A DNA stretch of 64,000 bases from assembly GCF_003346815.1 (NCBI RefSeq), contig NZ_CP031217.1:1488001-1552000 (forward strand). Reading direction: 5' to 3'. Source of the stretch: Halarcobacter bivalviorum. GTDB lineage: Bacteria > Campylobacterota > Campylobacteria > Campylobacterales > Arcobacteraceae. The position numbers and the translations under genes are program-made. Each line of letters opens with the position of its first letter. The stretch's first letter is position 1. The notes beneath the pieces are model-generated. The model searched no databases. It saw only the letters and a program-made list of their open reading frames with translations, and was not told where the DNA came from. This document shows positions 14,838-16,392 of the stretch, piece by piece.

Positions 14838-14919
14838 AAAAGAATCATTACTAAAATATGATTAAAAAGTGTTAAATCTACTTTTATCTTAAGCTATAAT
14901 GACTCATTTATATTCCAAA

Positions 14920-14940
14920 CTTGATTGACATTGACTCAAG
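14920..14940 (+). promoter_or_regulatory. HAIR operator for HspR
   Basis: The sequence reads CTTGATT-N7-ACTCAAG, one base away from the HAIR consensus CTTGAGT-N7-ACTCAAG bound by the HspR repressor. It overlaps the -35 box of the cbpA-hspR promoter, the position expected for repression. HspR is encoded in the same operon, so autoregulation is likely. Confidence 0.88.
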
Positions 14941-14953
14941 TTTATGCTAAAAT
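14925..14953 (+). promoter_or_regulatory. Sigma-70 promoter of cbpA-hspR
   Basis: TTGACA (14925-14930), a 17-base spacer and TAAAAT (14948-14953) make a near-consensus vegetative promoter. The start would fall near 14960, giving a leader of about 155 bases before cbpA. A full -35 is unusual among the promoters in this window. Confidence 0.82.
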
Positions 14954-15000
14954 ATCTATTATAATTAATAGATTTTATGTTCTATTTATAAGGGAATAAA

Positions 15001-15108
15001 AGAGCAACTCATTGCTCTCTTTAGGTTTGCTTCTTTAAAAATAGTTTACTATTTTGTTAAAAGAAGTCAGATATAAATAGGTCCCTTTTAATTGGAACAA
15101 TTAAAAGG
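15001..15108 (+). promoter_or_regulatory. Structured 5' leader of cbpA with a ribosome-site hairpin
   Basis: Three hairpins follow one another. The first is AGAGCAA/TTGCTCT (15001-15007 with 15012-15018). The second is CTTCTTTA/TAAAAGAAG with inner AAAATAG/CTATTTT (15030-15066). The third is a perfect 10-base-pair stem, CCTTTTAATT (15084-15093) with AATTAAAAGG (15099-15108). The last arm contains the AAAAGG ribosome binding site 7 bases before the ATG, so translation should be blocked until it opens. Confidence 0.7.
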
Positions 15109-15115
15109 TTAAAAA

Positions 15116-16000
15116 ATGGCAAAAAGTTTATATGAGACATTAGGTGTTAGCGAAAATGCAAGTGCTGACGAAATTAAAAAAGCTTATAGAAAATTGGCAA
15201 GAAAGTATCATCCTGATGTAAATAAGGATGAAGGTGCAGAAGATAAATTTAAAGAAATCAATGCAGCCTATGAAGTTTTAAGTGATAAAGAGAAAAAACA
15301 ACAGTATGACCAATTTGGTGATTCTATGTTTGGTGGTCAAAACTTCCATGACTTTGCAAGAGGTCAAGGGCAAGGTGTTGATTTAGATGAGATCTTAAGA
15401 CAAATGTTTGGTGGAGGACAAGGTGGCTTTGGTTCATCTGGTTTCTCTCAAGGAGGATTTGGTGGTTTTGGAGGCTTTGGAGGATATGAAGAGCCTGATT
15501 TAGATACACAAGCTCAAATAACTATTCCTTTTGATGTGGCAATCCTTGGAGGAAAACAACATATCTCTTTAAACAATGACTCTTTTGATATTAAAATTCC
15601 AGAAGGAATTAGTGATGGTCAAAAGATTAGAGCAAAAGGAAAAGGTAAATCATACCAAGGGCAAAGAGGAGATTTAATTATCAAAATAAATGTAGCTTCT
15701 AGTCCAGAATATGAAAGAGATGGTTCAACACTTACAAAAAAATTTGATATTCCGCTAAAAACTGCACTTTTTGGAGGAAAGATTGAAATTAAAACAATAC
15801 ATAAAACAATTACTCTAAAGGTACCTGAAAATACAAAACAAAATCAGAAATTTAGGGTAAAAGAGTTAGGTGTACTTGATAGGAAAACTTCAACAAGAGG
15901 TGACCTTCACTTAAAAGCTAATATTGTTTTACCAAAAGTTGATGAGCTTGATGAAGATTTTAAAGAGATTTTAAAAGAGAAACTACCTGAAAACTTATAG
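15116..16000 (+). CDS. cbpA: DnaJ-class co-chaperone CbpA
   Basis: CbpA stimulates DnaK ATPase and helps refold or hold clients. The 294-residue product has a J domain at residues 4-70 with the HPD tripeptide in KYHPDVNKD, a Gly/Phe-rich linker at about 75-125, and two C-terminal beta domains ([14 protein letters not shown]..., [15 protein letters not shown]). It lacks the CxxCxGxG zinc fingers of true DnaJ. hspR follows after 11 bases, so the chaperone and its repressor are co-expressed behind the HAIR promoter. Confidence 0.95.
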
Positions 16001-16011
16001 GAGAAGATATC

Positions 16012-16392
16012 ATGGATACTAACGCTTATAATGAACCAGTATACTTGATTTCAGCAGTTGCTGAAATTTTAAATATTCATCCACAAACTTTAAGACAGTA
16101 TGAAAGAGAGGGATTAATTAAACCCTCTCGTACTAATGGAAAAATTAGACTATATTCGCAAAAAGATATCGACCATATAAAATATGTGCTTACTTTAACA
16201 AGAGAGTTAGGGATAAATTTAGCTGGAGTTGATTTAATTTTACAGTTAAATAAAAAAATACAAAACTTAGAAGATGAGATTAGCACATATCAAATTAAAA
16301 TGAAAGATATTAATAAATTTGGAATTGTTCCAAACTCTAAGGCTTTAGTTATTAAAAAAAGTTCTTATGATGTAGTAATTTTTGAAGAGTAG
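16012..16392 (+). CDS. hspR: Heat-shock repressor HspR (MerR family)
   Basis: A 126-residue MerR-type regulator. The winged helix-turn-helix covers residues 8-75 (VYLISAVAEILNIHPQTLRQYEREGLIKPSRTNGKIRLYSQKDIDHI), followed by a short coiled coil (QLNKKIQNLEDEISTYQIKM). HspR proteins repress chaperone operons at HAIR sites, usually with DnaK as co-repressor. A good HAIR site lies on the promoter of this operon. The AGGAG ribosome site overlaps the cbpA 3' end. It ends in a hairpin shared with ftsZ. Confidence 0.93.
   Translation: MDTNAYNEPVYLISAVAEILNIHPQTLRQYEREGLIKPSRTNGKIRLYSQKDIDHIKYVLTLTRELGINLAGVDLILQLNKKIQNLEDEISTYQIKMKDINKFGIVPNSKALVIKKSSYDVVIFEE

Follow-up and report, generated by a model that had tools for sequence, protein, structure and literature searches.

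A dispersed RNA leader cassette with its own Shine-Dalgarno sequence, a candidate translational gate in the Arcobacteraceae

In ROSE and fourU RNA thermometers, a weak stem ahead of a heat-shock gene hides the Shine-Dalgarno (SD) sequence, and second-messenger riboswitches occur in several copies per genome; both properties recur in the element described here. Dispersed intergenic repeats form another group for comparison. Sections of one study report that the orientation of ERIC sequences affects the decay of co-transcribed mRNA (PMC2229807), and sections of another deal with the structure and distribution of BOX, RUP, and SPRITE repeats (PMC3049150). For Arcobacter sp. L, parts of the main text of a GC-IGR survey mention unnamed IGRs confined to Arcobacter, most of the motifs being unnamed, and a small motif, HRC-4 (PMC6429828). 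A multi-copy leader ending in an SD is not described in these parts, and a prior sighting is possible in the supplement. The element was likewise absent from the literature searched (titles and beginnings of abstracts in PMC), and the words intergenic, riboswitch, hairpin, csrA, and small RNA do not occur in the main text of PMC2147049. The cassette is apparently undescribed so far.

The cbpA leader and its dispersed relatives

The window, i.e., the whole stretch of DNA analyzed, comprises 64,000 nucleotides of the Halarcobacter bivalviorum genome and includes the neighboring genes cbpA and hspR (Table 1). No NCBIfam model matched the cbpA product above its cut-off, and the name reflects the layout of the J-domain and C-terminal part together with the hspR neighbor. 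Transcription of cbpA probably starts near position 14960, as deduced from the position of the -10 box. This start, and the leader of about 155 nt proposed in the first-pass annotation, are reasonable because the promoter sits in an HspR operator of HAIR-like sequence; PMC6102357 gives the HAIR consensus as CTTGAGT-N7-ACTCAAG. By eye, the operator and promoter were present at cbpA in all 16 genomes of the genus, with one extra mismatch in one of them (G007). An additional TGACTCA half-site (14898-14907) lies about 15–20 nt upstream of the operator, is similar in several congeners (by eye), and could be part of an extended HspR footprint.

Table 1. Features of the cbpA-hspR locus, in coordinates of the window
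Feature	Position	Strand	Basis or remark
HAIR-like HspR operator CTTGATT-N7-ACTCAAG	14920..14940	+	sequence; overlaps the -35 box
Promoter TTGACA-17-TAAAAT, TG before -10	14925..14953	+	11/12 matches
5' tract UGUUCUAUUU...AAGGGA	14978..14995	+	predicted long-range pairing with the platform, freeing the SD (MFE, centroid)
Whole dispersed element, core and platform	14998..15108	+	R1 match, 107.1 bits, E 3.9e-21
P1 hairpin AGAGCAA-CUCA-UUGCUCU	15001..15018	+	fold; changes on both sides in 5/7 pairs (helix 1)
Conserved linker CUUUAGGUUUG	15019..15029	+	CTTTAG..TTT (nearly) invariant, alignments A1 and A5
P2 (CUUCUUU/AAAGAAG) capped by variable hairpin P3	15030..15066	+	covariation test
3' platform	15080..15108	+	hairpin B, 15084-15094/15098-15108, closes the SD
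Shine-Dalgarno AAAAGG	15103..15108	+	final bases of the element; ATG at 15116, 7 nt on
cbpA, DnaJ-like co-chaperone	15116..16000	+	DnaJ-type models, all below curated cut-offs
hspR, heat-shock repressor	16012..16392	+	NF047375, 116.6 bits vs cut-off of 105

The first-pass annotation had noted an SD locked in a stem before cbpA, and this was borne out: the perfect stem CCTTTTAATT-GGAAC-AATTAAAAGG spans positions 15084-15108 and, when folded, forms a hairpin of 11 bp with a GAA loop, which has one G-C pair more than the perfect stem. The three hairpins described there (P1, P2/P3, and the SD hairpin) form when folding begins at 14997, but not as such once the 5' tract is included, where the lowest-energy fold is a long-range multibranch structure competing with the SD hairpin. 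The fold of the 171 nt from 14960 to 15130 had a z-score of -3.6, and one of 200 shuffled sequences was equally stable. Pairing of the 5' tract with the platform may free the SD in this leader, as hinted by the predicted folds and by a similar GUUCUAAU tract (by eye) at the cbpA orthologue of one congener (G009), i.e., in two genomes only. Rfam 15 gave no family at gathering score in the window, which agrees with the earlier remark that the leader matches neither ROSE nor fourU sequences; at 14 other loci only rRNA was matched, and the sub-threshold Rfam matches, each falling well short of its gathering score, were attributed to chance.

The leader, read in the first-pass annotation as belonging to cbpA, is indeed present before this gene but is not private to it, many other genes sharing the element. 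Judging by its sequence relatives, the stretch 14998-15108 is a copy of a structured RNA cassette of about 110 bases, which is dispersed and has its own SD. The shared plan comprises, from 5' to 3', P1, a CUUUAG-NN-UUUG linker, P2 topped by a freely varying P3, an A/U-rich spacer, and a platform of the pattern G(G)UCCC, about 8–9 nt, GGGAC, the complement of those nucleotides, and AAGG, followed by the start codon. The covariance model R1 found 12 strong copies in the H. bivalviorum genome, 9 of which had the full layout before a start codon; within the window, the second-best of the 12 matches listed had an E-value of 0.03. At E ≤ 0.001, R1 matches were present in 81 of 104 Arcobacteraceae genomes (16 of 20 genera), with up to at least 26 matches per genome; these multi-genome copy numbers are lower bounds, as part of the candidates was scored. 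A DNA search with the promoter plus leader gave 3–13 matches in each of the 16 genomes of the genus, mostly away from cbpA, but such tallies include the cbpA promoter itself and are superseded by the covariance models. From 140 aligned matches, 132 distinct copies (132 loci) were kept, among which strong copies are over-represented because most of the loci ranked high by score. Tandem arrays of two or three elements were seen at G003:C1:1061398-1061739, G081:C1:42763-42989, G061:C40:200824-201049, and G009:C14:112251-112474; in the tandem elements inspected (L048, L108, and L109), upstream copies end without AAGG.

The element was found at cbpA in 6 of the 16 congeners (G000, G004, G008, G009, G010, and G013), in three versions as judged by eye, and in degenerate form in G002, while the remaining 9 had a short cbpA leader with an AGGA SD and no element. 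This gain and loss suggests that the element is dispensable at cbpA. Several copies contain other repeats. In the cbpA leaders of G009 (L002/L253) and G004 (L255), closely similar nested hairpin insertions of the AAGGTNTCC...GGTACCTT type occupy the same point of P3, and in the H. bivalviorum genome a hairpin resembling them lies behind the truncated platform of L033/L056. The G013 cbpA leader (L029) and L022 contain an insertion of another small repeat (CATAGCG..GTCTTGTG.CGAACGAAGTGAAG).

Core and platform also occur separately. A platform model gave 10 matches in the H. bivalviorum genome at E ≤ 0.001, of which 7 were in elements and 3, preceding cysD-, ispH-, and nfo-like genes (names by eye), had no recognizable core. 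The core (P1, linker, and P2/P3) was found alone in Campylobacter- and Sulfurospirillum-like genomes and in viral contigs. At E ≤ 1e-5, the core model R2 matched genomes from three families of the phylum (64 of 397 genomes), and R1 touched one genome of a fourth; a pattern scan detected the core in Sulfurospirillum cavolei, Campylobacter majalis, and two Campylobacteraceae MAGs. Outside the family, cores were located between a cbpA-like and an hspR-like gene, near flagellin-like genes, and at sites without a start codon, including antisense positions beside 23S rRNA. An IF-1-like gene with an apparent TTG start directly follows the core in two Campylobacter-like genomes (L306, by Pfam; L311, by similarity). 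Depending on the Campylobacterales genome, it stands directly before 16S rRNA or antisense beside the 3' end of 23S rRNA (rRNA-side loci L140, L145, L147, L151, L152, L321; L136, L139, L313, L314, L319, L320; boundaries by Rfam for L319 and L321). In viral contigs, a looser core pattern revealed the core, of the Campylobacter type, in 24 of 26 matching stretches (L323-L346), with one to several copies per contig; the other two (L347 and L348), located within long ORFs, were regarded as chance matches. By eye, a start codon came no more than about 30 nt after at least 10 of 30 viral copies, and some were right before the SD and start codon of phage-like genes. The window element itself had no blastn match in plasmid or phage collections.

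Covarying stems and placement before start codons

Among 36 aligned copies, paired cells made up 94.9%, versus 75.3% after shuffling and 44–60% with partners slid, in a test biased toward its structure, which was derived from the same alignment. Cells changed on both sides numbered 196 versus 59 after shuffling, and further pair types were in slight excess (48 versus 43.8, a value of 48 being reached in 23 of 500 shuffles). Alignment A1 leaves out L002 and L029, which carry P3 insertions. P1, P3, and the SD stem vary freely in sequence with pairing kept, while the inner three pairs of P2 and much of the linker are invariant; changes on both sides affected 7/7 pairs of P3 (helix 3) and 2/5 pairs of P2 (helix 2), where the other 3 did not vary.

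The platform can be drawn as two hairpins. The SD is buried by stem B, which has about 11 pairs, most of them A-U, and is left free by stem A, which has about 5, most of them G-C; since the two stems share bases, they are mutually exclusive. In 68 distinct platforms (89 of 132 copies) fitting an ungapped 31-nt frame with conserved CC/GG positions, stem B had 10.06 of 11 pairs per copy, versus 8.21 (sd 0.13, maximum 8.62 in 1,000 trials) after exchange of the 3' arm among copies. In a separate test of stem B, 91.4% was paired, versus 74.5% after shuffling and 31%–75% with partners slid. The conservation or covariation in relatives on which the first-pass annotation had staked its stem was therefore found, the SD stem being kept by strong compensatory change. 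For stem A, 111 of 121 classifiable copies had matching variants, either GUUCC and GGAAC or GUCCC and GGGAC (Fisher p 4.5e-17, nominal only because the copies are related); the other 11 of 132 were unclassified, some being merely missed by the pattern. The ungapped alignment showed little covariation of stem A (92.9% versus 92.0% paired, reached in 15 of 500 shuffles) and says little about it because the stem is mostly invariant. The 10 discordant copies include that of the window, in which stem A (15081-15085/15094-15098) bears a C-A mismatch, and its G009 orthologue. Two hallmarks of riboswitches were found in the element: a conserved, covarying structured domain upstream of the platform, and exclusive SD-closed and SD-open hairpins, where the support for stem A comes from the UU/AA coupling rather than the ungapped test and stem A of the window is mismatched.

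A start codon of an ORF of at least 60 aa lay 5–13 nt after the SD of the element in 120 of 132 copies, versus 124 of 3,000 random points. The remaining 12 comprised 3 copies before ORFs of 54–55 aa (the one checked encodes rubredoxin), 2 with an ATG and a shorter frame, 2 upstream members of tandems, and 5 with a broken, absent, or interrupted platform. A stop codon of an upstream same-strand ORF was located within -20..+8 nt of the element start in 69 of 132 copies, versus 50 of 2,000 random points; about half of the copies therefore directly follow another gene. The 123 downstream proteins of at least 50 aa fell into 69 BLAST clusters with no single gene theme. A profile search of 19 of them, one per cluster, identified SufC, IspH, ThrC, CysK, transaldolase, Ddl, SucC, GuaA, NifD, a Fer2 ferredoxin, MnmG/GidA, class II dehydroquinase, NifU, a CobW/HypB/UreG NTPase, rubredoxin, thioredoxin, homoserine dehydrogenase, and HIT, and also P-II with a match below the curated cut-off; other names in the set were given by eye. 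Across the copies compared at the sequence level, the element has a fixed orientation, ends in an SD, keeps its structure by compensatory change, and stands ahead of unrelated genes.

Computed SD opening, a proposed gate, and competing readings

In isolated 36-nt platforms, the median gap between the best SD-free fold and the overall best shrank from 1.6 kcal/mol at 10°C to 0.7 at 25°C and 0.1 at 37°C; at 37°C it was 2 kcal/mol or less in 113 of 128 platforms. Unchanged platforms had a median SD openness of 0.17 at 37°C (n = 121); with the 5' arm of A replaced in silico, the SD was closed from 5 to 48°C (median 0–0.01, 118 platforms). Whole elements were mostly closed, their median openness being 0.04, 0.07, and 0.12 at 20, 37, and 42°C, respectively, with an upper quartile of 0.25–0.34. 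From 20 to 42°C the median change was +0.03 (121 copies), and a computed rise of at least 0.3 occurred in one of 121 copies in full context, leaving the window element and the other copies below this threshold, and in 13 of 121 as platforms alone. The sole full-context riser was the G013 cbpA leader (L029), which went from 0.09 at 20°C to 0.59 at 42°C; four other cbpA copies, including that of the window, did not exceed 0.18 at 42°C. Folded from 14997, the window element had an SD with an unpaired probability of 0–0.01 at 20, 37, and 42°C. In the leader folded from 14960, mean openness of 15103-15108 was 0.34, 0.47, and 0.50 at these temperatures, so the temperature folding proposed in the first-pass annotation gave only a gradual opening.

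We think it fairly probable that the element is a dispersed 5'-UTR cassette gating translation initiation of the following gene and closed by default. The 5' core would be followed by a 3' platform holding the SD of the gene, which B would bury and A would free. The default state would be B, and the nascent transcript could hold A at first, because A is complete before the 3' arm of B is made. The choice between A and B might be set by a ligand, a protein, a terminating ribosome, or the fold of the core itself. At cbpA, such a gate would operate beneath the transcriptional control by HspR; in the window copy A is degraded, and its part may be taken over by the long-range pairing with the 5' tract. 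The computed folding appears to fit a gate that is closed by default and potentially bistable better than a heat-melting device, both for this copy and for the family at large, although the G013 orthologue may be such a device. A point against it is that core and platform do not overlap. The broader idea, that one module forms a family-wide switch in which the SDs of tens of unrelated genes are set together by one signal read by the CUUUAG core, is tentative and rather doubtful. If true, it would represent a post-transcriptional regulon built by dispersal of a leader rather than of promoters, with a core reaching beyond the family and into viral contigs.

The first-pass annotation had read the leader as an RNA thermometer for heat induction of cbpA, whose A-U-rich SD hairpin would melt or yield to stem A. 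Such a device would be in keeping with an A-U-rich stem covering the SD of a gene with an HspR-type promoter, with the narrowing energy gap of the SD-free fold upon heating, with the 13 platforms that open alone, with the identity of the lone full-context opener as a cbpA leader, and with the gradual climb of the window leader. However, SD opening is nearly flat between 20 and 42°C and the window hairpin stays shut, so a heat-shock thermometer is unsupported for this copy; other cbpA copies hardly open either, the element mostly precedes genes with no heat-shock role (P-II, sufC, ispH, cysK, thrC, nifD, and others), and the 9 congeners lacking it at cbpA retain the HAIR-like promoter and a short leader. 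We regard this reading as unlikely, and since the same cassette precedes many unrelated genes, a general translation gate is likelier than a heat sensor. Of the two layers of heat control suggested at cbpA, the HAIR-like HspR operator is supported and the thermometer, for this copy, is not.

The main rival to the gate is a selfish MITE- or REP-like repeat, whose hairpins serve its spread as DNA and which is tolerated, with no regulation, since its end supplies an SD. Dispersed copies with gain and loss, as expected of MITEs, were found, and the patchy occurrence at cbpA, the nested repeat insertions, the tandem copies, and the occurrence of cores in either orientation next to rRNA, close to flagellin-like genes, and in viral contigs all fit this reading, as does a modest excess of flanking direct repeats (12 of 132 copies versus 5.0 expected by flank exchange, counted from 6 nt, some of which tandem copies may explain). 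We still hold it to be somewhat unlikely, because the copies have no terminal inverted repeats (mean best match 3.64 versus 3.54 in the control) and no clear target duplications, and the constant spacing to start codons and the compensatory changes in the SD hairpin also stand against it. A REP/RAYT origin was rejected: the core was absent from all 10 Y1-transposase loci (regular expression), no Y1 match was found in 8 of 16 genomes, all of which had element matches, and the H. bivalviorum genome had no PF01797 match, Y1 being the only transposase family examined. A role in RNA processing or stability, in which the 5' hairpins protect or create the 5' end of a cistron and the SD hairpin is secondary, could account for the 69 copies behind upstream ORFs and for the outgroup cores immediately before 16S rRNA or directly beside the 23S 3' end. 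This role seems quite unlikely, as it leaves the covariation of the SD hairpin and the A/B coupling unexplained, the window copy follows a promoter and not an ORF, and the copies beside rRNA are lineage-specific, with no core seen by eye in any of the four rRNA leaders of H. bivalviorum. These four leaders carry GATCTTTAACAATTT, which we take to be boxA-like, and a boxA/NusB reading of the core, suggested by the copies next to rRNA, was set aside. Pairing of the linker with 16S rRNA was likewise rejected, the longest exact complement being 7–8 nt, as for shuffled linkers. Binding of the global repressor CsrA to a GGA in the loop of B and to the SD is extremely improbable: 124 of 128 platforms have a GGA in their central region, but this reading is contradicted by the absence of CsrA (PF02599) from all 16 genomes of the genus, while a control set was matched in 3 of 14 genomes including E. 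coli, and at least one copy (L236) retains stem A without GGA in the loop. Campylobacter jejuni differs from these 16 genomes in this respect, and its CsrA regulon is the subject of PMC4894983.

Relation to described systems

If the gate works, many genes for Fe-S assembly, nitrogen metabolism, amino-acid synthesis, and other functions would share a translational control missed by promoter-based annotation. The element would then be a natural, portable SD cassette, in which dispersed repeat and cis-regulatory RNA appear to be one and the same. Even as a merely tolerated repeat, an element supplying the SD of so many genes would be unusual.

The GC-IGR motifs of Arcobacter sp. L probably come from the same bacterial group as the element, as far as can be told from the available parts of PMC6429828. 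Unlike ROSE and fourU thermometers, the element has a perfect stem of A-U and G-C pairs without bulges, with nearly temperature-insensitive opening in the window, and it is also located ahead of many genes outside the heat-shock response. It resembles translational riboswitches in having a 5' structured domain and an SD/anti-SD platform with two exclusive hairpins, but differs from them in the lack of a gene theme (69 clusters), of overlap between core and platform, and of an Rfam match, and any ligand is putative. Like ERIC/IRU and BOX repeats, it is short, dispersed, intergenic, co-transcribed, and strongly folded, and BOX repeats are modular too. Unlike them, it supplies at its 3' end the SD for the following gene, at a fixed spacing and within a hairpin maintained by compensatory change, and neither terminal inverted repeats nor clear target duplications were found.
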